Shown in pieces: positions 6,258 through 21,316 of a stretch of 64,000 nt of DNA. The notes under the pieces were generated by a model. It saw only the letters and a program-made list of their open reading frames with translations, was not told the DNA's origin and did no database searches. The stretch is from the NCBI GenBank assembly GCA_022565695.1, contig JAIUME010000006.1, forward strand, positions 62,001 through 126,000, written 5' to 3'. Within the stretch, counting starts at the first letter, position 1; each line of letters starts with the position of its first letter. Source of the DNA: Alcanivorax sp. Its GTDB lineage: Bacteria; Pseudomonadota; Gammaproteobacteria; Pseudomonadales; Alcanivoracaceae. A program made the translations under genes and the position numbers.

Positions 6258-7403
6258 ATGAACATTTTCGCCCTGTTTGCCTCGCCTTTCCGCATCTTCT
6301 TCCTGTCCTTGTCGTTGTGGGCGATTGCCGCGATGCTGCTCTGGGTCGCCAGCGTCACCGGGCTCGTATCGCTGTCGTTCTCCCTGTCGCCGCTGCGCTG
6401 GCATCAGCATGAAATGCTGTTCGCGATCCTCAATCCGGCCATCGCCGGCTTTCTGCTTACCGCAGTATGTGTCTGGACCAACAGCGAGCGATTGCACGGC
6501 CTGCCGTTGCTGCTGCTCTGGCTGGTGTGGCTGACAGGCCGCCTGGTCACTGGCGTACCTTTGCTGCCAGAGGCGCTCATGATCGCCATCAATTTGCTGT
6601 TTCTGCCGCTGGTAATGATAGATGCCGGGCGCCGCATTATCCGCGCCCGGCAAGCCCGCCATGCGCCGATTTTGCTGGTGCTGCTTCTGCTATGGCTGGC
6701 GCAAGCGGCGTTCCTGCTGCAGTGGAGCGGGCACGCCATGGCCATGGCATTGATCGCCGCCAGCGCGCTGATGCTGGTGGTCGGCGGCCGCATCACCCCG
6801 GCTTTTTCCGGCAACTGGCTGCGGGCCAACGGCGGCGACCCGCAGCGCATTCGTAACCCACTTTGGCTGGAGCGACTGACGCTGACGGCGATGCTGGTGC
6901 TGTGCCTCTCCTTGCCCTTCGGCAATAACGCACTGACAGCCATCCTGGCGCTGGTTGCCGCCCTCATCAGCCTGAGCCGCATCGCCCTGTGGCGCGGCTG
7001 GTTGGTCCGGCGCGAACCGATGCTGTGGATACTGCACCTGTCACTACTCTGGATCCCCGTCGGACTTGTCCTGCTGGCGGGCAGCCGCAGCGGGCTCTGG
7101 CCCGACAATGTCTGGATTCACGCCATCGGCATTGGTGCCATGGGCGCCCTGATTCTTGGCGTGATCAGCCGCGTGGGTCTCGGCCACACCGGCCGCCCCC
7201 TGACGCTGCCAGCCGGCATGGTCACCGCCTATGTGCTGCTTCATGCCAGCGCCCTGATTCGGGTGCTGACGGCATTGCAGATCCTGCCCTGGCAACGCGG
7301 GATTGAGATCAGCGCGGTGCTCTGGGTGGTTGCCTGGTTGTTGTTTCTGGTGCGTTACAGTGGGGTGCTGTGCAGCCCGCGGGTGGATGGGAAGCCGGGC
7401 TGA
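6258..7403 (+). CDS. nnrS: NnrS family haem-copper membrane protein
   Basis: A protein of 381 residues with about 12 membrane helices. NnrS hallmarks are present: PFRIFFLSLSLWA near the N-terminus, WHQHEMLF (about residue 51-58), PAIAGFLLTAVCVWT, then GRITPAFSGNWLR in the middle, and a C-terminal HTGRPLTLP motif. The histidines in these motifs are those thought to hold haem and copper. NnrS proteins protect cells against nitric oxide stress, usually under NO-responsive regulators. No denitrification gene lies nearby, so a stand-alone NO-protection role is likely. The start at ATG 6258 is certain from the conserved N-terminus. It marks the left border of the defence island. Confidence 0.92.
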   Translation: MNIFALFASPFRIFFLSLSLWAIAAMLLWVASVTGLVSLSFSLSPLRWHQHEMLFAILNPAIAGFLLTAVCVWTNSERLHGLPLLLLWLVWLTGRLVTGVPLLPEALMIAINLLFLPLVMIDAGRRIIRARQARHAPILLVLLLLWLAQAAFLLQWSGHAMAMALIAASALMLVVGGRITPAFSGNWLRANGGDPQRIRNPLWLERLTLTAMLVLCLSLPFGNNALTAILALVAALISLSRIALWRGWLVRREPMLWILHLSLLWIPVGLVLLAGSRSGLWPDNVWIHAIGIGAMGALILGVISRVGLGHTGRPLTLPAGMVTAYVLLHASALIRVLTALQILPWQRGIEISAVLWVVAWLLFLVRYSGVLCSPRVDGKPG

Positions 7404-7482
7404 ATCCGCCGATAAAGGTTTTTTCGTCCCCTCTCGGGATATTCTGGGGAGTCCGCTACTTATAATTAGCAAAAACAGGTTT

Positions 7483-8991
7483 ATGACCATGACGGCCAAG
7501 ATCGCGTGGGCAAAAAAGAGAGATTTGGGGGACGTCGTCCACATACTGCAAGTTTCGAACGGCAAGGCAGCGGACTGCGTATGCCTTGACTGTGGCGGTG
7601 AGCTTGTAGCCAAGCATGGAACGGGCAAGATGGCCCCTCATTTTGCTCACTCCGCGAATACGGAATGTAGAGGGGAGGGGGCCCTTCACTATGCTGCGAA
7701 GCACTTGCTGGCCGAAATTCTCCTTCAGCAAGGGCTAATACTGAGCTCATCTTCTGGGGAGGTATCGGAGTATATCCGGTCCGAAAGGGTGGTTTTTCCG
7801 TATCAAGTTCCGGATTTGATGCTTCGGGCGCATTGTATTTCTACTGAAAAGGATGTTTCTGATGACTGGCGTCCCGATCTTGTTGCTGTCGATAAAAATG
7901 GCAATTCCATTGCATTTGAAGTTGCTGTGACGCACTTCAAATCAGAGAAAGATATTATAAAAATTCGACGACATGGCATGGATTGCGTGGAGATTGATAT
8001 ATCAGATATTGGTTGGGATGCTGATCGTGCCAAGTTGACAGCCGAATTGCATGAAATTAAACGGCAGAAATGGTTGCATCGAAAGTCGGCTCTTGAGGCA
8101 AAATTTGAAGCCAGCGAGAAGCTGGCTTCAAGAATTTCACAATTGCATGATATCCATAATAAGAGAATAAGAAAATTTATCGCGAAAGGATGGAAGGATA
8201 AAGGAGTTGGTTTCCTTAATCCCGCCATTCCGAGTCTAAGTGCTCGTCATGAAGCGCGTGATGTTTTCGGCGGTATAGTTGTTGGGGAGGTGGTCAGGAC
8301 TCCCAGAATTGTTCGAATTGACTCTGAATGGAAACATGGTGATTCGGGGGCCGCTGTCACGGCAGTGCTGGAGAAAGGTGTCAAGATTAATTTATCCATA
8401 GTGGATGAGATGGTATTTTACCAGGATGAAGATTCATGTATGGAGGGGCCCGCATTGGTTCTTGTGGTTAGAGACTCTTCTGCGGGCAATATGGATTTGC
8501 GCGGCGAATGGTATGGAGTGGAGCGCTGGCAGGCCAAACTTGACGAATTGGCTAAGAAGGATGCTGTTGAGAAGCTGAATATCGCTAAAGAACGTCAGCG
8601 CGGCCTCGAAGATTTTGCTGCGGAATTTCGTAGAAAGAAGCCAGAAGAACAGCTGTCAATTATTCTGAGAAAGTTTGGTATCAGTGAGACATACTCTGTG
8701 GGGCGCTATGATCCAGAGTGGAATACCAGCGAGACCGTCTGGAAGCTTATAATCTGGCATTACAAGGTTCTCAAGAAGAGAAGTGTGAAGGTGGTTGATC
8801 TGGCTAATGATAGGTGGTTTGCCAAGATGCTTGGATTCTCGCAGGCAGATAGCAGGCGACGTTGCAATGGCCTTCAGCCATGGATGGATTTACTGGTCCG
8901 CAACAACATACTCAGACCCGGCTTGCATGGCGCCCTGGATATTATGGGGAAGCTAAGAGGACCAGTGCCGGGTGTCCCTTTGAGTGATTGA
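7483..8991 (+). CDS. CoiA-like zinc-ribbon / PD-(D/E)XK nuclease protein
   Basis: A protein of 502 residues. The N-terminus has a CoiA-type zinc ribbon: CVCLDCGGELVAKHG followed by APHFAHS, here CLDC with HFAH (about residues 33-60). A nuclease core follows: RPDLVAVDKNGNSIAFEVAVTH (about 127-148), where Asp, Glu and the trailing residues fit a PD-(D/E)XK/restriction-endonuclease-like site (E-x-A replaces ExK). The remaining 340 residues are helical and unrecognised. CoiA proteins act in competence, but no competence genes lie here and the neighbours are defence genes, so a defence nuclease is a better inference. Base composition is clearly AT-richer than flanking core genes. The start may be ATG 7483 or 7489; the ribosome-binding site is weak. 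Confidence 0.8.
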   Translation: MTMTAKIAWAKKRDLGDVVHILQVSNGKAADCVCLDCGGELVAKHGTGKMAPHFAHSANTECRGEGALHYAAKHLLAEILLQQGLILSSSSGEVSEYIRSERVVFPYQVPDLMLRAHCISTEKDVSDDWRPDLVAVDKNGNSIAFEVAVTHFKSEKDIIKIRRHGMDCVEIDISDIGWDADRAKLTAELHEIKRQKWLHRKSALEAKFEASEKLASRISQLHDIHNKRIRKFIAKGWKDKGVGFLNPAIPSLSARHEARDVFGGIVVGEVVRTPRIVRIDSEWKHGDSGAAVTAVLEKGVKINLSIVDEMVFYQDEDSCMEGPALVLVVRDSSAGNMDLRGEWYGVERWQAKLDELAKKDAVEKLNIAKERQRGLEDFAAEFRRKKPEEQLSIILRKFGISETYSVGRYDPEWNTSETVWKLIIWHYKVLKKRSVKVVDLANDRWFAKMLGFSQADSRRRCNGLQPWMDLLVRNNILRPGLHGALDIMGKLRGPVPGVPLSD

Positions 8992-8997
8992 TTTTTG

Positions 8998-9222
8998 TCA
9001 AAAGCTGTCGGTGTAGCCCATCTGCCTGAGCTGTCGCCTCAGGTCCGCACGGAACTGCCTTGAAGCACGCCAGTCGCCAGGCGTTGAAGGAACGACGAGA
9101 CGTATATCGCCGGTTGGCGACCTCAACTTGCCATGTTTGCCGCCTTTCACGTGGCTCCAGCCCAGTCGAATAAACTTCTTGACCATGTTGTTGATGGCGC
9201 TATCGCTTGAATACTTTTTCAT
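8998..9222 (-). CDS. Small HicA-like protein, pVip partner
   Basis: A protein of 74 residues. It starts at ATG 9222 with GGAGG five bases upstream, 17 bases after the viperin stop, so it is the second gene of that operon. Its core (GWSHVKGGKHGKLRSPTG, then VPSTPGDWRASRQFRADLRRQL) has the layout of the HicA mRNA-interferase fold: a short helix, a strand with Gly-Gly-Lys-His (His30), a hairpin, and a C-terminal basic helix. No HicB antitoxin is adjacent. It may be a nuclease or RNA-binding effector or regulator working with viperin (inference). The HicA relation is from pattern only and needs a structural check. Confidence 0.65.
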   Translation of the reverse strand: MKKYSSDSAINNMVKKFIRLGWSHVKGGKHGKLRSPTGDIRLVVPSTPGDWRASRQFRADLRRQLRQMGYTDSF

Positions 9223-9239
9223 GTCGGCCTCCGTGCCTG

Positions 9240-10121
9240 CTACCGATAGCGGCGCGCGAAGGCGTCGGCATTGAAGGGGATCTGCGAGAATGCCCTGGCG
9301 ACGCCCACCTTCAGGATCGGGTCGCTCTTGATATGGCCTTGGCCGGGGGCGCTGTTCTGGTAGAAGCGTCCCAGCGGGTTGACCATCAGGTACGACTGCC
9401 ACATCGCCTCGTTGTCCTCGACCACCACCATGGCGCCGGCAGAGTGGTGACGTGTCACATAGGCGTCGTACTGCTCATCGGTGATCACCTGCCGAACGTC
9501 ATGCACCGGCAGCACCCGCAACAACTTCCACTTGTCCGGCCTCACCGCTTCGATCACCGCCAACAGGTTCTCGCGCCAGTTGAACGGATTGACCACGGTG
9601 TTGATCTTCAGGGTGCCGGCCGGGTTCAACGCGCGATAGCCAGCTGCGATGGTGGCCAGGCGGGCAGGGCTCAGCCACTGACGGCGGCGGTCGGAGCGGC
9701 CAATGGAATGGGCGATCAGCTCATCGGCGGTATCAAAGCTGATACCCAGCATGTCCAGCATCGGTGCGACTTCGGCCAGCGTATCCTCGTGCAGGAAGTG
9801 GCCGTTGGTGATGATCGAGGTGGAGAACCCCAGTGCCTTGGCCTTTCGCAGGGCAGCGATAAACTGCTTGCCCAGCACCATCGGCTCACCGCCAGCGAAA
9901 TTGATACGCACGCCCTGGTAGCCCAGCTGGTCCTGGAGCGGGTTCGGGCTAAGGAAGTGCTCGGCGAGGCTGGTCAACAATTCATCAACCTTGCCTTCCT
10001 GGCGGTGCAGCTCGTTGCTCTGCGGGTCGTCATGCCATTTGGCGTAGCAGTAGGCACAGCGATAGTTACAGACTTCCGTCATGTGGAAGTTGATAACCAG
10101 ATTCTTCGGGAAAGTGCTCAT
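9240..10121 (-). CDS. Prokaryotic viperin (pVip), radical SAM ddhNTP synthase
   Basis: A protein of 293 residues of the viperin branch of radical SAM enzymes. The cluster motif is CNYRCAYC (Cys18, Cys22, Cys25), followed by NFAGGEP (74-80) for SAM binding. Viperin-specific parts are LGISFDTADE...IGRSDR, KINTVVNPFNWREN, KWKLLRVLPV, then the NSAPGQGHIKSDPILKVGV block and a final FNADAFARRYR; eukaryotic viperin has matching segments in this order. Known pVips convert a nucleoside triphosphate to its 3'-deoxy-3',4'-didehydro form, a chain terminator of phage RNA polymerase. The protein ends slightly earlier than many relatives, lacking the usual RGGxYxW tail. It is the first gene of a two-gene operon with a structured leader. 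Which NTP is used cannot be read from sequence. Confidence 0.92.
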   Translation of the reverse strand: MSTFPKNLVINFHMTEVCNYRCAYCYAKWHDDPQSNELHRQEGKVDELLTSLAEHFLSPNPLQDQLGYQGVRINFAGGEPMVLGKQFIAALRKAKALGFSTSIITNGHFLHEDTLAEVAPMLDMLGISFDTADELIAHSIGRSDRRRQWLSPARLATIAAGYRALNPAGTLKINTVVNPFNWRENLLAVIEAVRPDKWKLLRVLPVHDVRQVITDEQYDAYVTRHHSAGAMVVVEDNEAMWQSYLMVNPLGRFYQNSAPGQGHIKSDPILKVGVARAFSQIPFNADAFARRYR

Positions 10122-10201
10122 TGGATGTTGCCTCCGTATTTGTGGGTACGGAGGTCATCCTTTGTCAGTGCAGTGCACTACCAACCCTTATTTTCGGTTG
10201 G
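10122..10201 (-). promoter_or_regulatory. Structured leader of pVip: SD-sequestering hairpin plus two further dyads
   Basis: Three successive perfect inverted repeats precede the viperin start. Reading on the minus strand they are CCAACC/GGTTGG (10201-10181), AGTGCA-C-TGCACT (10179-10167), and CCTCCGTA/TACGGAGG with an 8-nt loop (10154-10131). The last arm contains GGAGG, the only good Shine-Dalgarno sequence, nine bases before ATG 10121. Folding of this stem would hide the ribosome-binding site. The middle dyad looks more like a repressor operator. Confidence 0.7.
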
Positions 10202-10211
10202 CGGGCATTTT

Positions 10212-10883
10212 TTAGCGAAAGCGGTCCAGCAGCTCGTCGAACTCCTGTGCCTCCCGGTAGCGGGCGCGAACCGCCTCGACCAGGGAACGACAGCCCACCG
10301 GGACCTCGCCGAGCCCCTCCAGCTCATCACAGAGCTGGCTGGCTCGCTCCCAGTCCTGAGCCAGATAGGCCGCCAGCAGCGAATCACCGGCATCCAGTGA
10401 GGCTGACTGCGCCAGCAAGGCACTCATCAGCATCATATTGCTGCTCAGCCCCAGTTGCGGCAGCACCTCGAAGGGGCTGGGCAGGCGGCTTTGTCTCAGG
10501 TTGAAGCTGTCCGTGGCCTGCAGACACTCCACCAGCTCGACGGCGGCCGGCTTGAGCAGTGCCACCCCGAGCAGGGCCTGCCGGTCGGTAAACAGGGCCT
10601 TGAGCTCTTCGGCGCTCTTCAGGCGGGTTGCCGGCTTGTCGAAGATGGCCTTGACGTACTTGGGGTCGGGGAAGAATGCACTCAGCAACAGTGCGTTATG
10701 CAGAATGGTGACGCCATCGGCATCGGTCACAAACCACTGCTTGCGCTGCACCGCCTGCTCGGCTTCCGCTGGCAACAGCCCATTGCGAACAAACGACATC
10801 GCCTTGTTCTTCAGGCAGGTGCTTTCGGCTCCGGTGTCGATCTGGAACAGATCGCGGATCAGTTCGGGGATCTTTCGGCGCAT
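10212..10883 (-). CDS. Unrecognised soluble helical protein upstream of pVip
   Basis: A protein of 223 residues, predicted mostly alpha-helical and soluble. I do not recognise a family. It has no signal peptide or membrane segment. The C-terminal half (FEVLPQLGLSSNMMLMSALLAQ onward, then DWERASQLCDELEGL) faintly recalls the HDOD part of EAL-HDOD proteins, but the usual motifs are missing. ATG 10883 lies one base beyond the stop of the preceding exported-protein frame, implying translational coupling; the nearest purine-rich site is 12 bases away. It is separated from viperin by the 90-bp leader and reads in the same direction, so co-transcription is possible. Confidence 0.7.
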   Translation of the reverse strand: MRRKIPELIRDLFQIDTGAESTCLKNKAMSFVRNGLLPAEAEQAVQRKQWFVTDADGVTILHNALLLSAFFPDPKYVKAIFDKPATRLKSAEELKALFTDRQALLGVALLKPAAVELVECLQATDSFNLRQSRLPSPFEVLPQLGLSSNMMLMSALLAQSASLDAGDSLLAAYLAQDWERASQLCDELEGLGEVPVGCRSLVEAVRARYREAQEFDELLDRFR

Positions 10884-10884
10884 A

Positions 10885-11253
10885 TCAGTGACAGACTTCC
10901 TGTTGGAGGAGACGGCTTATAGGGCGCTGCTGGTGTTCTGGAAGATTTTCATCCATAGAGGCGATTTGGCGGGCGGTATCGAATGCTGATCTGCTTCGTC
11001 GTATGCCTCTTGAACATTGAAATTGCTCCAGAGCACCCAGGCAGTAACCCGCGCGCAGAGCATCTGCGAGAGATGTTCTCTGAGAGGCAAGGAAGCGTTT
11101 CTCATTGTGTGCATTGAATATCTGTGTTGCTGTTTTGCAGGCCTGAATCAGAAAGCTCGCTTTATCTCCGCCGAAATCCGTGCGGGCACCGGCCGAGGAA
11201 GCACTGATGGCCAGGAGAACACATGACAGGAAAAGCAGGGTGGATCTAACCAT
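10885..11253 (-). CDS. Small exported protein, Rap1a/Tai-like; possible frameshift
   Basis: A protein of 122 residues with a signal peptide (LLFLSCVLLAISASSAGA). The mature part begins with an ACK-containing helix and an AGYCLGAL motif; two cysteines spaced this way recall the Rap1a/Tai immunity family (weak). After residue about 75 the frame becomes arginine-rich with rare codons, whereas the next frame (stop at 10917) reads more naturally as NFNVQEAYDEADQHSIPP. A one-base shift near 11020-11035 may have changed the C-terminus. Against this, the present stop lies one base before the next start, which fits coupling. ATG 11253 has GGAGAG upstream and overlaps the preceding stop by 8 bp. Confidence 0.55.
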   Translation of the reverse strand: MVRSTLLFLSCVLLAISASSAGARTDFGGDKASFLIQACKTATQIFNAHNEKRFLASQRTSLADALRAGYCLGALEQFQCSRGIRRSRSAFDTARQIASMDENLPEHQQRPISRLLQQEVCH

Positions 11254-11839
11254 TGGTCTCTCCATTCTCTGTTTTCTGAGCTTTATTCTCGACAGATATC
11301 GGTTGTGATGATGATGGCGGACTTGGATGGCGAAGCATGCCTTTCGGAGCGATGGAAAACAGGATGGCAAGCCACGTAAGCTCAGCCACAAGCTTGAAAG
11401 AATAAAGGTATTCTTGCTGTGCCATGTCCGGGTTCTCAGCCAAGGCGACGGCGATCAGGAAAAGGCAGATAAAGACCATTGCATTAATACCAAATGCAGT
11501 AATGTAGCGATGGGTGGCCCTGCCTCTATTCGCTTTGTGGAGCGAAACCTTTCTGATATATCTGAAAGTCAGAAATACCCACATAACATAGAAAAGGATC
11601 TCCATGGCATCGATATCATGCCAGCCGGCATTATTGGGAAAAACAGTGGCTGGAAGCATGATAAGCGCACCCAGGAGTGCTGCGAAGCAGATGCAGAAAA
11701 GAAAGGCTTTGGCTGACCATAGGATTGCGACGCCAAGCATGTCGTCAAACGACATGCGGAGATCGCCCTGAGCCAAGGGGCTTCTGCCACTGTTCTGCGA
11801 GGGAGATGGAAGCTTCCCTGCTTTGCTCGATTCTTCCAT
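11246..11839 (-). CDS. Inner-membrane protein of unknown function, four predicted helices
   Basis: A protein of 197 residues. A polar N-terminus of about 30 residues is followed by four membrane helices (LLGALIMLPATVF, ILFYVMWVFLTFRYI, INAMVFICLFLIAVAL, LVAELTWLAILFSIA) and a polar tail ending in Lys/Glu-rich sequence. No family is recognised. ATG 11839 is chosen for the strong AAGGGGGA site seven bases upstream; an earlier in-frame ATG at 11908 has no such site. It is the first gene of a leftward run of three unrecognised genes leading to viperin. Codon use and composition are AT-richer than core genes, suggesting transfer. Confidence 0.7.
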   Translation of the reverse strand: MEESSKAGKLPSPSQNSGRSPLAQGDLRMSFDDMLGVAILWSAKAFLFCICFAALLGALIMLPATVFPNNAGWHDIDAMEILFYVMWVFLTFRYIRKVSLHKANRGRATHRYITAFGINAMVFICLFLIAVALAENPDMAQQEYLYSFKLVAELTWLAILFSIAPKGMLRHPSPPSSSQPISVENKAQKTENGETNG

Positions 11840-12130: not shown

Positions 12131-12334
12131 CTAGACGATGCAAATCGGCCGGGTGCGCTGCCACTCAATACTCCCGGCATTGGTCTTGCCGGCGTTGTAC
12201 TCGCTGGCAAAATAGCTCACACCAATCAGCGGGTCCAAATTGGCTTCGATATGATTCTGGAGATGCTTCTTCAGTTTGGCGCTTAGTTCGCTGTTGGTGT
12301 CGCCGGCGAGACGGAGCGGTTTGATTTCGCTCAT
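12131..12334 (-). pseudogene. Truncated N-terminus of a PD-(D/E)XK / DUF5655-type nuclease protein
   Basis: This 67-residue frame starts at ATG 12334, sharing ATGA with the hsdS stop, so it was the last gene of the hsd operon. Its sequence (MSEIKPLRLAGDT, then LIGVSYFASEYNAGKTNAG) matches the N-terminus of predicted-transport/PDDEXK proteins of the DUF5655 type, which continue IDxLG...EYK with the nuclease active site. Here the match stops at NAGSIE and the frame ends nine residues later, before any catalytic residue. It is therefore a broken gene. The adjoining orphan remnant at 11930-12085 suggests a deletion or recombination joint near 12086-12150. Confidence 0.6.
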
Positions 12335-13725
12335 GCCTTTGTGGCTTCCTTCTTTCGTCTTCCGCCCCTAGCTGGCTTCTGTTTGGCTCGCTCAGCCCTG
12401 ATCCGATCCAGCAAGGCCTCCGCACTGTTGCCGCCGCTGATCAATTCCGGGTTCTCCATGCGCCATTGCTCGGTCAGTTCGCCCCGGAAGGCTTTGGACA
12501 AGATGGATTGGGTGAGGTTGTTGACGCGGGTTAGGGCCGCGTTGACCTGTTGCTCGATGCGGTCGGCGTAGGCGAAGAGCTGGTCTGCCTTGCGGACGAT
12601 AACCGCCTGAGTTTGAATGGGCGGGACTGAAAACTCTAATGACTTCAATATTTTTAGATTGACTCTTGGTCTGGTTATGCCTTGTACGTGCTCTTTGATC
12701 TGCGCATAGGAGGCCTGTGAAGTGAGTAGATACAAAACAAACTCAGGTAGCGCTTCTTTCTGATTTATTCGTAAACAGAAGCAATCTGCTTTGTTTATGA
12801 AAGTAAGTTTATCGAATGGGAAGAGACAAGCACGCACTTCTTCGTCCACGAAGGAAGAGAATAGTATGTCATTCTTTTCAAGCTTATTCTTTGCCAGCGT
12901 CAGGTATTTATCTTCGCTGATGAACGTCTTCTTCGATTGGTCGAATCTGAGGTGTCTGATGTTCTCAAGACGGACCACGCCGACACCTCCGCCTGTGTAG
13001 TCTGACGATTTGAGTTTTGATCCAAAAGGCCCGTCGAAAGCAGTGGTGCATAGGTTGGCAAGCTTTGTTGCTGGACAACGCTCATCAACCGCTTCTCTAT
13101 CCCCAGTCAGTTGCCCGCTCGCCGCCGCAGCCAGTATGGACTGGCGGAAGCGTTTGAGAATTTTCGGGATGCGTTCGAGGCGGGATTTGGTGTTTTCCAC
13201 CTGGGCCAGCAGGATGCCGAGTTTGTCGGCGATGACTTTTTGTTCGGCGGCAGGCGGTAATGCGATGGGGAATGATTCAACAAATGCTCGCGGGACTCGA
13301 CGGAGGCCCACCGCGCCAGTCATGTTCTCTGCTCCCTGCTGCATGAATGCTTGCGTTTTGACAATTGCAAAGATCAGGTTAGGTGAAACCTCCTCGCAAG
13401 CAGGCCTGAGAACATAAAACTCGGAACTCCCGGCGCCGATTCCACTGGGCATATCCCGCACAATGGCAGCTTTTCCATTCTCGAAGCACGGGGTTACTTT
13501 GGCGAAAATGACGTCGCCATCAGCGAAGTTGGTATAGGATTTCTTGATCTCGCCCCACATCTTCTCTTCGTGCTGCAACGTGCCGTGATAATCGGTAGGC
13601 GCTAGTGCCATGGGAACAAAACCAGCCGTTTGCTCGGCACTTGCCTCATTCTTAGGGTTCAGTAAAACAATATCCGCCAATGTGCATTGAGCCCAGCTTT
13701 CAGGTGCGTCATTTTCTTCCGTCAC
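12331..13725 (-). CDS. hsdS: Type I restriction-modification specificity subunit
   Basis: A protein of 464 residues with the usual two target-recognition domains. Each is followed by a conserved helical spacer: LPPAAEQKVIADKLGILLAQVENTKSRLERI (written here only as landmarks LPPAAEQK and LLAQVEN, near residue 155) and VPPIQTQAVIVRKADQL (near 370). After the first spacer comes RFRQSILAAAASGQLTGD, after the second QSILSKAFRGEL, both typical of HsdS. It sets the bipartite DNA target for the M2S methylase and R2M2S nuclease. It overlaps hsdM by ATGA. Target-recognition domains are the AT-richer parts of the gene, as is usual after domain exchange. Confidence 0.93.
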   Translation of the reverse strand: MTEENDAPESWAQCTLADIVLLNPKNEASAEQTAGFVPMALAPTDYHGTLQHEEKMWGEIKKSYTNFADGDVIFAKVTPCFENGKAAIVRDMPSGIGAGSSEFYVLRPACEEVSPNLIFAIVKTQAFMQQGAENMTGAVGLRRVPRAFVESFPIALPPAAEQKVIADKLGILLAQVENTKSRLERIPKILKRFRQSILAAAASGQLTGDREAVDERCPATKLANLCTTAFDGPFGSKLKSSDYTGGGVGVVRLENIRHLRFDQSKKTFISEDKYLTLAKNKLEKNDILFSSFVDEEVRACLFPFDKLTFINKADCFCLRINQKEALPEFVLYLLTSQASYAQIKEHVQGITRPRVNLKILKSLEFSVPPIQTQAVIVRKADQLFAYADRIEQQVNAALTRVNNLTQSILSKAFRGELTEQWRMENPELISGGNSAEALLDRIRAERAKQKPARGGRRKKEATKA

Positions 13726-15290
13726 GCCGCACCCTCCAGTGCCGACGCCAAAGCTTCCAGTTCGCCTAACGCAGCTTTTAGTTCCCCCATCGCCTCGCCT
13801 GCCAACACACTCGGCTCCGGTAGGTTGGCGGCATCCACGCTGTCACTGTCCTTTAGCCAGGAGATATCCAGTGAATCGCCCTTGTGTTCGGCAATCCACT
13901 GGCGGCTAAAGCGGCGCCAGCGGCTGTGGGCCAGGCGTGGATCGACGCCCTGGTTTTCCTCTGCTTCCTTTGGTAGTTCTATTTTGTCCGAGTGGAAGCT
14001 GTATTCACCTTCAGTGCGCTTGCTGGTGCCATCAGGCTTCTTGCCGTACATCTTCTCGAACGGCTTGAGGTGCTGTTCGCCGAAGGGGGTGCGTTTGCCG
14101 AAGTTGGGCATGTTTGCGCGCAGGTCGTAGACCCAGACGTCTTTGGTGCAGTTTTCTTCCTGGTGTTTGTCTTTGGCGCTGCCTTTGGTGAAGAAGAGGA
14201 CATTGGTCTTGACGCCCTGGGCGTAGAAGATGCCGGTGGGCAGGCGCAGGATGGTGTGCAGGTTGCACTTGTTCATCAGGTCGCGGCGTACCTCGGTGCC
14301 GACGCCGGCTTCGAACAGCACGTTATCCGGCAGCACCACGGCGGCGCGACCGCCGGGTTTCAGGTTGCGGTAGATATGCTGTAGGAAGGCCAGTTGCTTG
14401 TTGCTGGTCTTGTAGGTGAGGTCGTCGCGGGTGATGCTGGCGTCGCCGCCCTTGCTGGTGCCGAAGGGCGGGTTGGCGAGGATCACGTCGGCTTTTTCCA
14501 GAGTGGCGCCGGCCTGGCCGAGGGCGTTGCCCAGGTGCACCACGCCTTCGGCGTCACCTTCCATGCCGTGCAGCAGGCAGTTCATCAGGGCCAGGCGGCG
14601 GGTGCCAGGCACCAGTTCGATGCCCACATAGGCTTTGGTGCTCTGGAAAGTTTTCTGTTTTGCGGTCAGGTCGTAGAGTTCGTCGGTCTGGCTCTTGATG
14701 TATTCGTGGGCGGCAATCAGAAAGCCCGCGGTGCCGGCGGCCGGGTCCTGGATGCGTTCGCCGGGTTGTGGTTTCAGGCAGTACACCATGGTGTTGATCA
14801 GGGCGCGTGGGGTGAAGTACTGGCCGGCGCCGGATTTGGTTTCGTTGGCGTTCTTTTCCAGCAGGCCTTCGTAGAGATCGCCGAGGCCGTCTTTCTGGGC
14901 GCTGAACCAGTCGATCTGATCCAGTGTCTTGATCATCTGTTCCAGATGGCGCGGCTCGCGCAGGCGGGTCTGGGCGTCGGCATAGATGGCGCTGATCAGC
15001 GGGTCGTCATGCACCGGCTTGCCGTTGGCGTCCTTGCCGGTGGACAGGCTGAGCAGGATGCGCTTGTAGTCGTTGAGCAGGTTGATGCCGGAGCGATTGT
15101 TCAGATCGGTCCAGCGGCAGCCTTCGGGCAGCGGGTGTTTCTTGAGGGTGCCGGCCTCTGTGCTCTCGTGCACCATCTTGATAAACAGCAGCAGCACCAG
15201 CTCGGTGACATAGTCGGAATAGTTGATGCCGTCGTCGCGCAGGACGTCGCAGAGGTTCCAGAGTTTCTGAACGATGTCGTTGTTGGTCAT
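13722..15290 (-). CDS. hsdM: Type I restriction-modification DNA N6-adenine methyltransferase subunit
   Basis: A protein of 522 residues. The N-terminal helical HsdM domain begins NNDIVQKLWNLCDVLRDDGI. The SAM-binding motif I is DPAAGTAGFL (near residue 180) and the catalytic motif IV is NPPFG (near 275), the signature of N6-adenine methylases. It transfers methyl groups to the host copies of the HsdS target. The start ATG 15290 has GAGAG upstream and lies 21 bp after the fic stop. A C-terminal helical tail follows for contact with HsdS. Confidence 0.95.
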   Translation of the reverse strand: MTNNDIVQKLWNLCDVLRDDGINYSDYVTELVLLLFIKMVHESTEAGTLKKHPLPEGCRWTDLNNRSGINLLNDYKRILLSLSTGKDANGKPVHDDPLISAIYADAQTRLREPRHLEQMIKTLDQIDWFSAQKDGLGDLYEGLLEKNANETKSGAGQYFTPRALINTMVYCLKPQPGERIQDPAAGTAGFLIAAHEYIKSQTDELYDLTAKQKTFQSTKAYVGIELVPGTRRLALMNCLLHGMEGDAEGVVHLGNALGQAGATLEKADVILANPPFGTSKGGDASITRDDLTYKTSNKQLAFLQHIYRNLKPGGRAAVVLPDNVLFEAGVGTEVRRDLMNKCNLHTILRLPTGIFYAQGVKTNVLFFTKGSAKDKHQEENCTKDVWVYDLRANMPNFGKRTPFGEQHLKPFEKMYGKKPDGTSKRTEGEYSFHSDKIELPKEAEENQGVDPRLAHSRWRRFSRQWIAEHKGDSLDISWLKDSDSVDAANLPEPSVLAGEAMGELKAALGELEALASALEGAA

Positions 15291-15311
15291 GGGGCTCTCA
15301 GGTTGCTGAAT

Positions 15312-16418
15312 TCAGTGATAAGGCTGTAACTGGTTGCTGTCGCTAGTCATCAGGCGTAGCAGCCTCGGGTTGAGAAACAGCTTTTCATTGCCGGCGGTCT
15401 GTTCTTGCAGTACGCCGATTTCTGTCAGTTGCTTGAGATACACCGAGGCGGTTTGCCGCTTGGCAATATCTTTATCGACCAGGTTGCTGATGCGGCAGTA
15501 GGGCTGCTCGAAGATAATCTGTAGCAGCTCGTGGCTGTAGACTTTTGGCAGCTTTTCTCTTATGTGTTGTCCGGTCTGCGTCATGAGTTCGCGCATGGCG
15601 GCGATTTTATCGCAAGTCCAGGCGGATACCTGTTCCACCCCCTTGAGCATGAATATGATCCATTCCTCCCAGTCACCGGTACGGGTGACCTGGGTCAGGA
15701 GGCGATAGTAATCATTTTTGTGCTGAACAATGTACCGGCTCAGATACAGGATGGGCAGGGTCAACAACTGTTGTTCCAGCAGATACAGCACGTTGATGAT
15801 GCGTCCGGTTCGGCCATTGCCGTCGTGGAAGGGGTGAATAGCCTCAAACTGGTAATGGCTGATGGCCAGCTTGATCAGCGGGTCTGTGTCGTCTTCGCCG
15901 TGCAGGTAGTTTTCCCAGTTGGCGAGTAGGTCGCGGAGCAGTTTCTCGCCACAGGGCGGGGTGTAGATGGTTTCGCCGGTCGCCTGGTTGCCGATAATGG
16001 TGCCGGGGACTTTACGGATATCCATGTCCACACCCTTGAGGGTGCTGCATATCTCCACGGCGGTATTGGTACAAAGCGGCTTGCGTTGGAGGTGGACGAA
16101 GCCATCGTAAAGTGCCGTCCGGTATCTCAGGGCCTCCCGGGTTGCCGGGTCGGCCCCCCGGTCTTCCTGCAAGTAACGGAAAAGCTTGTCGGTGGTGGTG
16201 ACGATATTCTCAATCTCGGAGCTGTCCTTGGCTTCCAGCAGGGGTAGCAGATTGATCAGCAGGGTCTGGTTGGGAATGAGCTCTCCGGCCTGCTTTAGCT
16301 CGGCCAGCGCCGCACGGGCGGGAATGCATGCCTTGAGGATAGCTACCGTTTCGGTGGTTTCCCGGGCCGGTGGAAGGGGCGGCAACAGGTTGTAGGGCTC
16401 GTCAGGTTTCCATGCCAT
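15312..16418 (-). CDS. Fic-domain AMPylase with autoinhibitory helix and C-terminal winged helix
   Basis: A protein of 368 residues. The Fic core motif HPFHDGNGRTGR starts at His195, with the full HPFx(D/E)GNGRxxR signature, so AMP transfer is expected. The N-terminal part contains SSEIEN (Ser66-Asn71), matching the (S/T)xxxE(G/N) inhibitory helix of self-restrained class II Fic proteins. The last 90 residues resemble a winged helix (RISNLVDKDIAKRQTASVYLKQLTEIGVL) followed by a short wing. MAWKPDEPYN is taken as the start (ATG 16418) because AAGGA is eight bases upstream; ATG 16445 would add nine residues. It sits between hsdR and hsdM. An array of TGTCGAT boxes lies upstream. Confidence 0.92.
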   Translation of the reverse strand: MAWKPDEPYNLLPPLPPARETTETVAILKACIPARAALAELKQAGELIPNQTLLINLLPLLEAKDSSEIENIVTTTDKLFRYLQEDRGADPATREALRYRTALYDGFVHLQRKPLCTNTAVEICSTLKGVDMDIRKVPGTIIGNQATGETIYTPPCGEKLLRDLLANWENYLHGEDDTDPLIKLAISHYQFEAIHPFHDGNGRTGRIINVLYLLEQQLLTLPILYLSRYIVQHKNDYYRLLTQVTRTGDWEEWIIFMLKGVEQVSAWTCDKIAAMRELMTQTGQHIREKLPKVYSHELLQIIFEQPYCRISNLVDKDIAKRQTASVYLKQLTEIGVLQEQTAGNEKLFLNPRLLRLMTSDSNQLQPYH

Positions 16419-16468
16419 GTACAAATTCCTTAATAATTTCGACATAGGTCGTGATTCTGGCCAGTCTA

Positions 16469-16559
16469 TGTCGATGCGATAAACATGGCAATGATCTGTG
16501 TCGATAAAGCGCTAAAAAATCGACACTTATAGGTGTCTGTGTCGATGCAATCAACATGG
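16469..16559 (-). promoter_or_regulatory. TGTCGAT box array upstream of fic
   Basis: Between hsdR and fic lie two 20-bp direct repeats 71 bp apart (16469-16488 and 16540-16559; 18 of 20 bases identical; shared core TGTCGATGC with a trailing AACATGG). Between them are another TGTCGAT (16499-16505) and its inverse ATCGACA (16519-16525), forming a dyad spaced by 13 bp. The stretch is AT-richer than the flanking genes and ends 24 bp before the longer possible fic start. It looks like an operator/promoter region. Confidence 0.6.
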
Positions 16560-16578
16560 TCTGGGCAGGGGGGCCGGA

Positions 16579-19500
16579 TCAGGCACTCTCCTGGGGCCAG
16601 ATGGTCTCATTCAGCTCTTCCAGCACGGTATCCAGCTGCTCGCCCAGCACCTTGTCGAGCCGCTTGGCGCCGCCGTCTTCGGAGAAGCGAGTGTTCACAA
16701 ACTCCCTGTCGATGATGACCTCGTGCACCAGTTGCCTGGCCAGGCGATCCAGCCATTTGCGCTGGGCCGGGGTCCAGGTGTGCTGGCTGAGGATGTTGTC
16801 CATGGCCCGGGCGACCCGTTGCTCGAACGGGACCAGGGCTTCGCCCAGGGCGGCGCGGCGGATATGGCCGAGGATGCTGGCGGCGATATCCCGGTTGGTC
16901 TGGTCGCGCACGGCGCTGCGCAGCTTGGCTTCCGAGTAGCCATTGGCGTCGAGCAGTAGTTTCACTTCGCGCAGTTGTTCGCGGGTCAGGTCCCGTGGGC
17001 GGTTGACCACCACGGCCAGGGCGGCGGACTGGTTGATCTGTGCGCGGATAAAGTGGTTGAAGCTGTCCAGGTAGTCTTCCGGCCGCTTGTGGTCGCCGTA
17101 GCTCTGGGCGCGATCGCGGATCTCGTCTTCGTGTTCGGAGATGACCGGCAGGTTGTCGCTGCCCACCAGGGCCCGCACTTCAGTGAGCTGGTTGAGCAGG
17201 CCGCTGTGTTCGCGCAGGAAGTCGGCGGCCCGGCGTGGGCCGAGCTGGTGCAGGTGCTGGTGCAGGGATTTCGGTTCCACGCCCCAGAGCTGCTGCAGTT
17301 CATCGAGCTTGGCCTTGAGTGCTGGCCGGCTTTCGGCCTTGTGGTCGGCCTTGCGCAGGATGCGCATCAGTTTCTGGCTGAGCTGGCTGAGCACCACGTC
17401 GGCCTGGCTTTCGTCGGCCTGTTCGCCGGGGCTGTGCAGGGCCTTTTCCAGCTGCTGTGCGTCGCTGAGTTCGTCGACCAGTTGTTCCAGGGTGATATTC
17501 GGGTCGCGCACCAGCGGCTTCATGGTGTTCACATCCTGCAGGGCGGCATAGATGTCCACCGGGTCGTAGATGCGGAACACGGTCTTGCCGATGTCGTCGC
17601 AGCGGCGGGTGGCGCGGCCGATCATCTGTTCGTAGAGGATGCGCGAGCGCACCCGGCGCAGGAACACCAGGTGGCAGATGGGCGGCACGTCGATGCCGGT
17701 GGTGAGCAGGTCCACGGTGATGGCGATGCTCGGGTAGCGTTCGTTCTTGTAGCGGCGGATCAGTTGGTCGACCTTGTCGCTCTGGCCGGTGATTTTGGCC
17801 ACGGCGGCCTGGTTGTAGTCGCCGTTGTAGAGTGCTTTGAAGGCGTCGTCGAGCAGCCGCTTGACCATGTCGGCGTGCAGGTCGGTGGCGCAGAAGATCA
17901 GGGCCTTCTCGTCGCCGAACGGGTCCAGTTCGTTAACCAGCTGTTCGCAGATGACCCGGTTGAAGTTTTCGTTGATCACGCGGCGGTTGAAGGCCTCGAC
18001 ATCAAAATTGAGTTCGTCTTCCAGCTCGGTGGTGTCGACTTCACCGGTCTGGGTGTTGATGACGCTGACCGGGGAGCCTTTCTCGAAACGGATCCCCTCC
18101 TGGGTGAGCAGGGTTTCATAGCGGATGGGGGGCTCGTGGTCGATCAGCCAGTCGTCCGCCACGGCTTCGCGGTAGGAGTAGGTGAAAACCGGTTTGCCGA
18201 AGATTTCTGTGGTGTGTCGGGCCGGGGTGGCGGTCAGGCCGATGCGCACGGCATCGAAGTAGTCGAGCACCCGGCGGTAGCTGGAGATGTACTGGCTGGC
18301 GTCGCGGGTGGCCAGTTCGCCTTCGGTCATGTCCTGGTCGAGGGTATAGCCGCGGTGGGCCTCGTCGATAATGATGCAGTCGAACTGATCAATTGGCGGC
18401 GGTTCGTCGCTCATAAACAGGCGCTTCACCATGGCCTGCACGGTGGCGACCTGGATGCGGGTTTCCGCAGCGGCTGCCATATCGCCCAGCTCGGCGACGT
18501 TATAAATCTTGCTCAGGGTCTGGTTCTGTTCCAGCGGTGCTTCGTTGAAGGCGTCGATGGCTTGCTGGCCCAGAGCGGTACGGTCTACCAGAAACAGGAT
18601 GCGGTGGAAGCGCTCTGTTTTCAGAAAGCGGTACATCAGGCCGATGATGGTGCGGGTCTTGCCTGTGCCGGTGGCCATGGCCAGCAGGGCGCTGCGTACG
18701 CCGTGTGCCAGGGCGGTTTCCGTAGCAAGAATCGCTTGCTCCTGATAGCCGCGCAGCTTCAGGTAGCCGAAGGGTTCGTGCTTGAGCAGCTTGTCAGCGT
18801 TTTCCTGGTCGCGTTCCAGCAACTGGAGCAGGCCGCCAGGGGTATGGAAGTGGGGCAGGGCACGACGAGTGTTACTCGGACGGCGAACGTCACGGAACCA
18901 TGTGCCGGACTGTTCCGCCAGCTGCGGCACGTAGGGCCTGCCGTTGCAGGAGTACACAAACGGCACTATGAAATGCCCCGTCTCTTCCGCAGGCCAGGCG
19001 ATGGTGCGGCCAGCCAGCGTCCAGGCGCCCACCAGTGGCGGTTCGACCTTGAAGCCCTGGCTGTACCGCTCTGCCTGGATGATCTTGCCTGCGACGTTGG
19101 TGTTTTCTTTCTTGGCTTCGACTACCGCAATGGGGGTGAGGCCGGCGAACAGCACGTAATCGGCGCGGCCCTTGTTGCCATTGTGATCGGTCGGCCATTC
19201 GGCGATGGCGCGGTTGATGCCTTTCTCCGGGCGAGCACCTTTCTGCCAGGTCAGCTCCTGACTGTCCGCTTCCCAGCCCATTGTAACCAGCTGCTGGTCG
19301 ATCAGGATGCGAGTCAGTTCCTCATTGAGCACCAGTGTATCGCTGGCGGCGCGAGTTTGGCGGGCCACGGTGCGGCGTTGCTCGCCAAGGGTTTGTTCGC
19401 CCTTGGTGCTGAGCTGTCGTTGCAGCGCCTGGATTTTCTGCTCGTAGGCCTGCTGTTGCTGCGCCAGGGCCTGCTCATGCTGACGGGCCTGTTCGGCCAG

Positions 19501-20106
19501 GGTCCGGGACTCCTCGTCCATGGCCAGCGCCAGCGCTTCGTATTCGGCCTTTTCCTGCTCGATAAGCTTGCTGAGTTGCTGGCTGCTGTCGAGCTCCAGA
19601 TTGGCTTGCTGAAGCTCATGGCGCAGCTTCTCGATATCAGTATGCAGCTGCCGCAGCTGGGCGCTGGGGTCGGCGGGTGGCGCAAAGGGGCCGGACTTGA
19701 AGCTGGCCCCTGCCTTGCCGAAGGAGCGGTGGAACCAGATTGCCAATTCGCGGGCCAGCTTGAGCCCATCCATGGCTTCTCTGTGACGGGTGCGAAACTG
19801 GTGGGTGGCGCGGTTGCCCTCGACGCGCAGGGTATGGAACAGCTCCTTGATCTGCGGCTCCAGCCGCAATTCGCGGTTCAGCCGATACAGAAGGTCGGTC
19901 TGGCTGGTCTGTTGATCGAATTCGACACCGGCCTGGACGGCCAGATGTTGCGCCAGAGCCTCACCAAGCTGACGCAGTTTGATCAGGGTGGTGTTGGGGT
20001 CACTGGCAAAGGCTCGCTCGGCGGCACCGGCCAGCTCCACGAACAGCATGTCGTGCTCCGCCAGAAAGCCGAAATTGGATGATGCCGCGCCGGTGTGTCC
20101 TTCCAC
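16579..20106 (-). CDS. hsdR: Type I restriction endonuclease subunit R
   Basis: A protein of about 1175 residues. An N-terminal helical domain (SNFGFLAEHD, then DPNTTLIKLRQLGE) is followed by a coiled coil rich in Gln and Glu. The PD-(D/E)XK nuclease (GRADYVLFAGLTPIAVVEAKK) comes next, then a superfamily 2 motor with Walker A MATGTGKTRT and motif II IDEAHR, motif VI in GRATRRC, and a C-terminal helical domain. It translocates DNA and cleaves unmodified DNA as part of HsdR2M2S. GTG 20106 is preferred for GGGGAG six bases upstream and because the conserved start lies just after it; an ATG at 20253 would add 49 residues with no family likeness. It is the first gene of the hsd run. Confidence 0.93.
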   Translation of the reverse strand: MEGHTGAASSNFGFLAEHDMLFVELAGAAERAFASDPNTTLIKLRQLGEALAQHLAVQAGVEFDQQTSQTDLLYRLNRELRLEPQIKELFHTLRVEGNRATHQFRTRHREAMDGLKLARELAIWFHRSFGKAGASFKSGPFAPPADPSAQLRQLHTDIEKLRHELQQANLELDSSQQLSKLIEQEKAEYEALALAMDEESRTLAEQARQHEQALAQQQQAYEQKIQALQRQLSTKGEQTLGEQRRTVARQTRAASDTLVLNEELTRILIDQQLVTMGWEADSQELTWQKGARPEKGINRAIAEWPTDHNGNKGRADYVLFAGLTPIAVVEAKKENTNVAGKIIQAERYSQGFKVEPPLVGAWTLAGRTIAWPAEETGHFIVPFVYSCNGRPYVPQLAEQSGTWFRDVRRPSNTRRALPHFHTPGGLLQLLERDQENADKLLKHEPFGYLKLRGYQEQAILATETALAHGVRSALLAMATGTGKTRTIIGLMYRFLKTERFHRILFLVDRTALGQQAIDAFNEAPLEQNQTLSKIYNVAELGDMAAAAETRIQVATVQAMVKRLFMSDEPPPIDQFDCIIIDEAHRGYTLDQDMTEGELATRDASQYISSYRRVLDYFDAVRIGLTATPARHTTEIFGKPVFTYSYREAVADDWLIDHEPPIRYETLLTQEGIRFEKGSPVSVINTQTGEVDTTELEDELNFDVEAFNRRVINENFNRVICEQLVNELDPFGDEKALIFCATDLHADMVKRLLDDAFKALYNGDYNQAAVAKITGQSDKVDQLIRRYKNERYPSIAITVDLLTTGIDVPPICHLVFLRRVRSRILYEQMIGRATRRCDDIGKTVFRIYDPVDIYAALQDVNTMKPLVRDPNITLEQLVDELSDAQQLEKALHSPGEQADESQADVVLSQLSQKLMRILRKADHKAESRPALKAKLDELQQLWGVEPKSLHQHLHQLGPRRAADFLREHSGLLNQLTEVRALVGSDNLPVISEHEDEIRDRAQSYGDHKRPEDYLDSFNHFIRAQINQSAALAVVVNRPRDLTREQLREVKLLLDANGYSEAKLRSAVRDQTNRDIAASILGHIRRAALGEALVPFEQRVARAMDNILSQHTWTPAQRKWLDRLARQLVHEVIIDREFVNTRFSEDGGAKRLDKVLGEQLDTVLEELNETIWPQESA

Positions 20107-20408
20107 CCCTGTCTCCCCGTTTCGTTGCACCGCTAATTGTTTTTGAGCGACCTGTTGGACATACGGTGCAAGTCGGATGGTAAGTGGCTGGCATCGGCAG
20201 AACAACTCCGGCGTCATCCTGGCCGATGCGCCGCGATTCGGTAGTTGCATCATGTTGCGTGGTCAGCGGCGCGACCAGGAGAGTCGCCCCGGTCGGGGCG
20301 GGGCATCGGCTTGCAGCACGACGACAGGCCTCACCTTGCCCAACTTGCGACCCAGATCGGGATTCGGGCGTACCCGGATTTCGCCAAGGCGGGGTGCCAC
20401 CAGCAAAG
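20107..20408. other. Non-coding gap upstream of hsdR
   Basis: The 302 bases between the preferred hsdR start and the abiE operator region hold no credible gene in either direction. The stretch should contain the leftward hsdR promoter. An in-frame extension of hsdR (to ATG 20253) is open here but unlike relatives. No convincing -35/-10 pair was found for the minus strand. Confidence 0.4.
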
Positions 20409-20539: not shown

Positions 20540-21316
20540 ATGGCTGGTACTCCTCCTCGATCCGAATGGTTGGAAAAGGTGCATTTCGGTCAGTTTGTCA
20601 CGCGCCAGTGGTTGCTGGGGCGGGGCGTGTCCCTGCATGCCCTGGATAACGCGCTGAAGTCGGGCAAGCTCGAGGCTTTGGCTCGGGGGGTGGTGGCTCG
20701 CCCGGGCGTTGCCATTACATGGGAAGCTGCAGTGGCATCGCTGGACCGGTTGTTGCCGGAGCCGGTTTATGTCGGCGGCCTGTCCGCGCTTGCCGAGGCA
20801 GGGCTTGGACACTACCTGGATGTCTCGGAGAGCCTGCATCTTTATTCTCCGGCGCGTGCGCCAGCCTGGCTGGGGAAATTGCCTTTGCAGACACGGTTTG
20901 TCTGGCACAACACTGCGAGATTGTGGGACATGCAGGCACTATTGGCCGCAGACAGCCTGCGCCGGCACAGCCTGTCGAAGAACACCGGATGGATGATGGC
21001 ATCGCCGGAGCAGGCGTTCATGGAGGTGTTGTCGGGTGTGCCAAACGTGGTCAGCTTCGAGCATGCTGACAACCTCATGCAGGGGATGAGCGCCTTGTCC
21101 CCGCGCAGACTGGACGTCCTGCTCAGGGCAAGTCGTCATATTCAGGTCAAAAGGTTGTTCTTTTTCTTCGCAGACCGCTATGGCTATGCATGGCGAAAAC
21201 GCCTTGATCCGGAGCATTACGATCTGGGCTCGGGAAAGCGCAGTATTGTTGCGGGAGGAAAGCTGGACAGGACCTATCTGATTACAGTCCCCAGGAGCTT
21301 CCATGGATCGGAATAG
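20540..21316 (+). CDS. abiEi: AbiEi antitoxin (type IV toxin-antitoxin)
   Basis: A protein of 258 residues. The N-terminal winged-helix region (FGQFVTRQWLLGRGVSLHALDNAL, then KLEALARGVVARPG) is the DNA-binding part of AbiEi, and the following AbiEi C-terminal domain includes a YVGGLSALAEAG block and a late basic stretch. AbiEi counteracts AbiEii without binding it (type IV) and represses the operon. The start ATG 20540 lies 23 bp after the promoter-proximal dyad, fitting autoregulation. It overlaps abiEii by 14 bp. The gene order and overlap are typical. Confidence 0.88.
   Translation: MAGTPPRSEWLEKVHFGQFVTRQWLLGRGVSLHALDNALKSGKLEALARGVVARPGVAITWEAAVASLDRLLPEPVYVGGLSALAEAGLGHYLDVSESLHLYSPARAPAWLGKLPLQTRFVWHNTARLWDMQALLAADSLRRHSLSKNTGWMMASPEQAFMEVLSGVPNVVSFEHADNLMQGMSALSPRRLDVLLRASRHIQVKRLFFFFADRYGYAWRKRLDPEHYDLGSGKRSIVAGGKLDRTYLITVPRSFHGSE

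Follow-up and report, generated by a model that had tools for sequence, protein, structure and literature searches.

A conserved three-gene module and leader ahead of a prokaryotic viperin gene in an Alcanivorax defence island

The closest described relatives of the locus reported here are prokaryotic viperins (pVips; NCBIfam NF038283) encoded beside hicA. As far as the accessible text of Gerdes (2024, mBio; PMC10865869) goes, hicA lying upstream or downstream of pVip makes up HicA classes 9 and 10, the earlier observation of hicA with pVip is attributed to Bernheim et al., relE is noted beside pVip, and how production and activity of the pVip-adjacent RNases are regulated is posed as an open question. 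Our subject is a pVip gene in a 64,000-nucleotide stretch of Alcanivorax sp. DNA (GenBank assembly GCA_022565695.1, contig JAIUME010000006.1, positions 62,001 to 126,000), termed the window. This gene is the fourth in a row of five, in the order TM (a membrane protein), EXP (a small exported-looking protein), u223 (a proposed regulator), pVip and a HicA-like gene. Its product is like other pVips in radical SAM motif, viperin segments and defence-island setting, and hicA directly downstream of pVip is the class 10 arrangement; unlike the usual pVips it has no adjoining kinase and stands behind the TM-EXP-u223 module and a leader, neither of which is described for class 10 in the accessible text (PMC10865869). 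The relE genes noted there recall the ParE-like genes that we find at related Marinomonas loci.

Three kinds of regulator, known to us from partial texts, bear comparison with u223. BrxR-family WYL repressors and CapW (PMC9122601) are DNA-binding regulators found near diverse defence systems and acting at inverted-repeat sites, as we propose for u223; the window differs from them in its short odd palindrome, set in a promoter spacer before the cargo, and in its membrane and exported partners. Neither a WYL nor a STAS domain was among the 12 Pfam families matched at E<=1 by 20 u223 members. CapK/CapS (PMC13373217) are encoded with diverse immune operons, and RptR (PMC12255303) is often encoded beside type I restriction-modification (R-M) genes and has a palindromic site; both repress the adjacent promoter, again as proposed for u223. 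CapS resembles a STAS domain and works with a kinase, and RptR consists of one four-helix domain and has TAGCTA sites, unlike u223, which has about 220 residues and a different palindrome; the accessible parts of these two papers (PMC13373217, PMC12255303) name no TM/exported pair and no ribosome-site hairpin. It is by these descriptions, rather than by sequence comparison, that u223 is set apart from RptR and CapS.

In the transposase genes of IS10 and IS50, hairpins that bury the ribosome-binding site block read-through expression. The hairpin that we propose for the window would similarly silence transcripts entering from outside; unlike those of IS10 and IS50 it lies ahead of antiviral effectors and is combined with a proposed operator.

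The pVip gene, the HicA-like gene and their pairing are of already published kinds. The unusual and new part of the locus, apparently undescribed, is the upstream module with its leader: no description of TM-EXP-u223 was found in the literature searched, which included few subscription papers. An earlier note on this DNA had placed a viperin operon at 8998-10201; the pVip/HicA-like pair that it recognised is real, but the operon is larger, taking in three further same-strand genes upstream (10212-11839), and the leader at 10119-10184, inside that interval, had been overlooked. We judge it rather probable that the row is an inducible defence operon in which u223 represses the promoter of the genes behind it, the cargo, and a leader hairpin silences read-through RNA.

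The module and its changing cargo

No family match to u223 was found in Pfam, NCBIfam, PADLOC, PHROGs or PDB sequences, and no Pfam match is consistent across 20 of its members. Its relatives were gathered at 28 loci, drawn from a search of the window's order, a u223-alignment scan of 84,980 species genomes, and two Pseudoalteromonas plasmids reached by way of pVip; the hosts are mostly marine gammaproteobacteria. The scan yielded 20 loci, 19 of them from named genera: Marinomonas (5), Shewanella (3), Pseudidiomarina (2), Nitrincola (2, in one genome) and one each in Ferrimonas, Oceanobacter, Idiomarina, Marinobacterium, Parathalassolituus, Reinekea and Marinobacter; the twentieth is in a planktonic gammaproteobacterial metagenome-assembled genome. 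The order TM, EXP, u223 is constant over the 28 loci, with u223 overlapping EXP or lying at most 22 nt away. EXP has a profile match at all 28. The membrane-segment protein ahead of it was recognised by hydropathy at 26 and by blastp to the window TM at L055 and L059, which failed the crude hydropathy rule; at several other loci TM is assigned from hydropathy and place alone. The two plasmids carry a divergent module, recognised by profile (u223, E 7e-4 and 2e-3; EXP, 3e-9 and 7e-9, these values being computed within the set of neighbouring genes only).

Among 390 genomes of the order, u223 occurs in 12 and pVip in seven, the two being adjacent in five (Fisher 2e-7, a figure that serves only as a guide, the genomes being related). 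Among 369 genomes of the class u223 was found only in the window's own, apart from a doubtful 54-residue fragment with a stop (G714), and pVip in four others, none with u223. No match to u223 was seen in 45 other genomes of the window's family, none in viral contigs, where pVip gave two weak matches, and none by tblastn in phages and plasmids. These distributions bear on a rival explanation, which we consider decidedly unlikely: that pVip-HicA is an ordinary stand-alone unit, and TM, EXP and u223 an unrelated system sharing the same type I R-M hotspot. pVip can indeed do without u223, which is absent from two of the seven pVip genomes of the order sample and from all four others of the class sample, and seven of the 12 u223 genomes of the order have no pVip. 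The leader argues the other way. It occurs with u223 and always directly before cargo, whose ribosome-binding site it contains except at L058; L047 and L074 have a second copy ahead of a second cargo; and the adjacency of u223 and pVip is kept at 17 loci even though u223 diverges to the point of detection by profile only.

The cargo itself varies. Over the 28 loci it is pVip at 17 (including the two Pseudoalteromonas loci reached via pVip; u223 searches alone give 15 of 26), a B12-binding radical SAM protein at three, a beta-CASP RNase at three, radical SAM3 with HicA at one, and protein X, protein Y or a ParE-like protein at four (L043, L044, L045, L049). These labels come from Pfam or PADLOC for representatives and from blastp homology for the rest. 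At L047 and L074 pVip is placed after another leader-borne gene. To fit the starred branches of the u223 tree, the pVip label has to change at least three times, which, with the varying cargo, argues that the module has been reused and its cargo exchanged; comparison of the loci thus establishes, at the level of sequence, a conserved module and leader behind which cargo has been swapped. A leader serving chiefly as a recombination site for cassette exchange, like an integron or attachment site, would account for differing cargo directly downstream of it and for the copies before each cargo at L047 and L074. We find this scarcely credible: no recombinase is seen as a module member in the gene lists, in which families are only partly annotated, and a conserved ribosome-binding site and promoter-like bases would be needless for a crossover site.

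The B12-binding radical SAM genes (assigned by Pfam and homology; L053:9023-10396, L057:9088-10428, L046:3350-4606) lie behind Y or small open reading frames (ORFs), and that of L053 matches the PADLOC candidate PDC-M51A at 3e-171; we regard them as candidate makers of other antiviral nucleotides. Small protein Y accompanies those of L053 and L057, thymidylate-kinase-like genes accompany those of L053 and L046, and at L046 there is also a ParE-like gene. Beta-CASP metallo-RNases are the cargo of L041, L060 and L066 (Pfam on two, homology for the third). At L058:8875-11128 the same module is followed by a HicA-like gene, another radical SAM protein, weakly similar to pVip (PADLOC 4e-7), and a P-loop/phosphoribosyltransferase-like protein; a possible short GTG ORF, noticed by eye, lies there between leader hairpin and hicA. 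Protein X (L047:8718-9341, L049:8713-9321, L043:7485-7976, L044:9471-9986, L045:7702-8238) is the first cargo at L047, L049 and L045 and the second gene at L043 and L044. It has a weak GRDP-like match, below cut-off, and its four copies compared share a WHxHILDT motif and a C-terminus that is rich in cysteine and closes with CACRxxxACK.

Genes following pVip vary as well: a HicA-like gene in the window and at L052, L055, L059, L062, L064, L065 and L061 (the last by tblastn), ParE-like genes at four Marinomonas loci, a thymidylate-kinase-like gene behind ParE at L050, and a DUF4145 protein at L074 and L078. In Shewanella a protein with NYN and OST-HTH (LOTUS) domains is encoded directly downstream of pVip (L054:9660-10586). 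At L023 (G019) an intact pVip with a HicA-like gene behind it is accompanied, some 11 kb away, by a truncated fragment of a second pVip (586-1151), which has a HicA-like gene of its own. Eight of 14 plasmid pVip records were examined. Those of Moraxella and Acinetobacter do not carry the module, pVip being preceded there by a gene unlike u223; directly upstream of pVip they encode a 222-residue protein (L076:3204-3872, L077:3252-3920), alike by eye in the two and annotated as hypothetical in L076 and as LRAT-family in L077, which is possibly another pVip partner.

Palindrome, promoter-like element and hairpin of the leader

The leader lies between u223 and pVip. Its palindromic core, GTGCANTGCAC, is found in the interval from the stop codon of u223 to the start of the cargo at 24 of 26 loci, the other two having altered odd palindromes; the Pseudoalteromonas plasmid leaders carry GTGAATTTCAC, and L074 additionally GTGACTTTCAC ahead of a kinase gene. 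In the 20 scan loci (315 kb; L063, a second contig of the L062 genome which is not one of the 28 loci, is included in this count) every one has the core no more than 120 nt from the u223 stop, with one extra copy elsewhere, before the second cargo gene of L047. The window's own 3.5-Mb genome has a single copy, which rules out a site for genome-wide regulation. A longer form, TTAGTGCANTGCACT, was found in four of 381 genomes, in three of them directly after u223, and the reversed control in three; the fourth, in G005, is an unrelated match with no u223 or EXP within the 3 kb examined. Other u223 genomes of the order have palindrome forms with flanks different from those of TTAGTGCANTGCACT. No palindrome was seen upstream of pVip at 12 loci without u223 (six over 330 nt, six plasmid loci over 200 nt). 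Rfam recognised no known riboswitch or leader in 9950-10350: its single hit was the S15 leader, at 15.1 bits (gathering score 39.5) and E 0.41. On the Pseudoalteromonas plasmids a short ORF, of about 36 codons by eye, lies between leader and pVip (L074:3811-3980, L078:3811-3980) and begins MYHLILFSLL and MHHLILFSLL respectively.

When 29 leaders are aligned gap-free on the palindrome, three bases outside it never vary (T at -11, A at +12, T at +16), positions -12 to -6 read mostly CTT[GT][GT]T[AT], and the intervening bases differ; all 29 have the same GTG and CAC palindrome arms. The invariant bases are spaced as in -35 and -10 hexamers 16 bp apart with the palindrome filling the spacer, which is an operator's position. 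A high-confidence model of the N-terminal 103 residues of u223 (predicted local distance difference test score, pLDDT, 92.2) has three helices, a beta hairpin and a further helix, in that order, a topology by which the domain is predicted to be winged-helix-like. Of the 50 Foldseek matches listed, about 40, judged by title or family, are MarR, PadR, HxlR and similar winged-helix regulators. Ser30 and Arg33 of an SxxRN motif in the third helix of this domain are present at all 24 loci with a GTGCA core, and both are absent at the four with GTGGA, GTGGG or GTGAA/GTGAC cores: across the compared sequences the palindrome changes together with the predicted recognition-helix motif of u223.

The palindrome might instead act as an RNA hairpin, u223 or HicA binding two tandem hairpins in the mRNA and controlling translation, and this we think unlikely. 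Both the palindrome and the second hairpin fold strongly as RNA, two pairs of the palindrome have changed on both sides, and HicA is described in print as a double-stranded-RNA-binding domain. The invariance of the GTG and CAC arms is, however, as for a protein site, the other invariant bases stand at -35 and -10 positions, u223 is predicted to be a winged helix, and a palindrome covaries by symmetry, as DNA or as RNA alike.

After the promoter-like element most leaders have a stem around the ribosome-binding site. Compared with shuffled versions the leaders are stable (mean z -4.6, 24 of 25 below -2), more so than control leaders of other genes at the same loci (mean z -0.7, 13 of 66 below -2), and the part after the palindrome is by itself below -2 in 22 of 25; the window leader scores -6.1 and, without the palindrome, -7.6. 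L058, where the cargo start is not beside the hairpin, was dropped from this set and from that used for accessibility, and L059, a near-copy of L055, from both of these and from the leader alignment. A start at +22 to +24, as predicted by the -10-like element, would remove part of the 5' arm of the hairpin. Over 28 leaders the mean probability that the Shine-Dalgarno (SD) sequence is unpaired is 0.14 for read-through RNA and 0.40 after such shortening, the values for 46 controls being 0.35 and 0.41; for the window it goes from 0.00 to 0.27, and in 20 of the 28 the gain exceeds 0.1. The folding predictions thus lend moderate support to the hairpin as a lock on read-through transcripts, and a lock of this kind would make sense where toxic genes lie downstream of R-M and control genes.

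A number of results weigh against the operator and the lock. A scan for the sigma-70 consensus found no canonical match in the promoter-like element, and the -10-like hexamers match TATAAT reliably only at A2 and T6; with so weak a resemblance an activator role for u223 is conceivable. No GTGCANTGCAC was found ahead of TM, so there is no sign of autoregulation through this site. Foldseek gave nothing significant for the N-terminal domain of u223 (best E 0.14) and nothing at E<=0.001 for the full-length fold (best E 1.3), and the covariation of helix motif and palindrome comes from two or three lineages. As to the hairpin, the post-palindrome z is above -2 at L041, L044 and L065, three of the 25; shortening lowers SD accessibility by more than 0.1 in two of the 28 leaders; in six the SD is half open (0.36-0.51) already in the read-through form, and in L056 and L078 its accessibility is near zero even after shortening. 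At least three of the four SD bases are paired in the minimum-energy fold of 18 of 25 leaders against 32 of 66 controls (P=0.06). The hairpin pairs do not align across loci (45% of cells paired for helix 2, with 16 leaders of the 29 compared), from one group to another the second hairpin changes its register, and RNAalifold predicts the palindrome alone.

The viperin, its HicA-like neighbour and the island

That the window gene (Table 1) belongs to the prokaryotic viperin family is, on profile and fitting tree, beyond reasonable doubt. The earlier note had recognised it from a CX3CX2C cluster and viperin segments, and all of these are present in the order given: CNYRCAYC, NFAGGEP, SFDTADE...IGR, KINTVVNPFN, KWKLLRVLPV, DPILKVGV. 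Its preference for a viperin over a MoaA-type enzyme is borne out by the equivalog profile NF038283 ('viperin_w_prok'), which scores 327.8 bits (cut-off 180); the two best MoaA models reach 43 bits, with cut-offs of 325 and 284, which rules out an enzyme of MoaA/PqqE type. PADLOC matches pVip at E=6e-92, about equally well by its kinase-associated and kinase-free viperin models. Among PDB sequences there are nine matches at E<=1e-3: viperin, viperin-like or RSAD2 is the name given to five, and the remaining four go only by 'radical SAM core domain-containing protein'. The alignments include solved viperins. No second pVip above the NF038283 cut-off is present in the genome. In a phylogeny of 29 pVips the window protein falls inside a starred clade of 15 (support 100/97), closest to those of Nitrincola (68% identity) and Idiomarina/Pseudidiomarina. 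The outgroup, which contained no MoaA set, was three further radical SAM proteins encoded in the window's genome; their branches are very long, one of them falls at an open fork with distant pVips, and the tree does not resolve its root. The protein ends FARRYR, lacking, as had been pointed out, the RGGxY tail of animal-type viperins, but this is ordinary rather than a special trait: RGG is missing at the tail position in 26 of the 29 pVips compared, including all 17 linked to u223.

The HicA-like gene scores 7.2e-23 with PADLOC HicA-like and 21.4 bits with Pfam HicA, under the gathering score of 27; a longer GTG ORF overlaps pVip. The histidine of its KGGKHGKL motif, which we take to be catalytic, is kept in all nine aligned HicA-like sequences, the window's included. 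No hicB was recognised beside it, its neighbours being pVip upstream and a convergent CoiA_N-domain ORF downstream, and no kinase was recognised by PADLOC or Pfam among nine neighbouring proteins scanned. The gene's second place and the missing kinase, both remarked on before, are therefore real, but the arrangement is already described (in the accessible text of PMC10865869); PADLOC contains a model 'Viperins not associated with kinases'.

In an alignment of 14 EXP proteins C43, C75 and C84 are invariant and C125 nearly so, and the start resembles a signal peptide by eye. At first sight EXP is Rap1a/Tai-like, but none of the 14 has such a Pfam match. Beyond TM lie, all on the pVip strand, hsdS, hsdM, a SoFic-like gene and hsdR, and farther out an AbiEi/AbiEii pair (20540-22226, + strand) at the far end of the island, a setting that confirms the defence island first proposed. 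On the other side the CoiA_N-domain protein (7303-8991, + strand), which runs convergent to the row, scores 27.4 bits with Pfam (cut-off 26.3) and has no PADLOC match.

Table 1. Features of the locus in window coordinates.
Feature	Position	Strand	Description	Evidence or context
HicA-like gene	8998-9222	-	74 aa from ATG	PADLOC HicA-like; Pfam HicA below cut-off
pVip	9240-10121	-	prokaryotic viperin, 293 aa	NF038283, PADLOC pVip, tree
Hairpin	10130-10155	-	3' arm holds the pVip Shine-Dalgarno (GGAG at 10135-10132)	
Promoter-like element	10157-10184	-	-35-like TTGGTA (10184-10179), 16-bp spacer, -10-like AAGGAT (10162-10157)	
Odd palindrome	10167-10179	.	AGTGCANTGCACT, proposed operator, in the 16-bp spacer	directly after u223 in related loci
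u223	10212-10883	-	223-aa protein, N-terminal domain predicted as winged-helix-like, proposed to regulate the cargo promoter	
EXP	10885-11265	-	small exported-looking protein, four conserved Cys	alignment, profile
TM	11246-11839	-	membrane protein, at least 2 hydrophobic segments, start codon uncertain	hydropathy, homologues in same place
Type I R-M genes	12331-20253	-	hsdS, hsdM, hsdR with a SoFic-like gene between, upstream of the row	

A proposed double control

In the inducible operon that we favour, pVip and HicA would be toxic or antiviral cargo and the control module would consist of membrane-bound TM, exported EXP of disulphide type, and cytosolic, winged-helix u223. Bound to the spacer palindrome, u223 would keep the cargo promoter off. 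The hairpin, spanning the expected transcription start, would hide the ribosome-binding site in transcripts arriving from the upstream R-M and control genes, and a transcript begun at the cargo promoter, with part of the 5' arm gone, would be translatable. An infection signal, possibly passed through the TM/EXP membrane pair, would release u223 and allow pVip to be made; by analogy with characterised pVips, its products would be 3'-deoxy-3',4'-didehydro (ddh) nucleotides that end phage transcripts, HicA presumably cutting RNA alongside. Repression by u223 and silencing by the hairpin would together confine the production of toxic antiviral enzymes to when they are needed. More tentatively, TM-EXP-u223 could be a new envelope-linked alarm module, sensing phage at or through the membrane and releasing an exchangeable effector from a double lock; this would mostly be viperin, and elsewhere a B12-radical SAM, a beta-CASP RNase, antitoxin-less HicA/ParE-like toxins, or another radical SAM together with a kinase/phosphoribosyltransferase-like protein.

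Module and leader would then be a compact candidate answer, comprising regulator, operator and translation lock, to the question of how pVip-RNase pairs are controlled, left open in the accessible text of Gerdes (PMC10865869). The presence of the same module and leader before other enzymes offers a handle for finding new effectors, the gene that follows the leader being likely antiviral; and if the alarm module is real, the radical SAM proteins other than viperin among its cargo would be candidates for new enzymes that make antiviral nucleotides.

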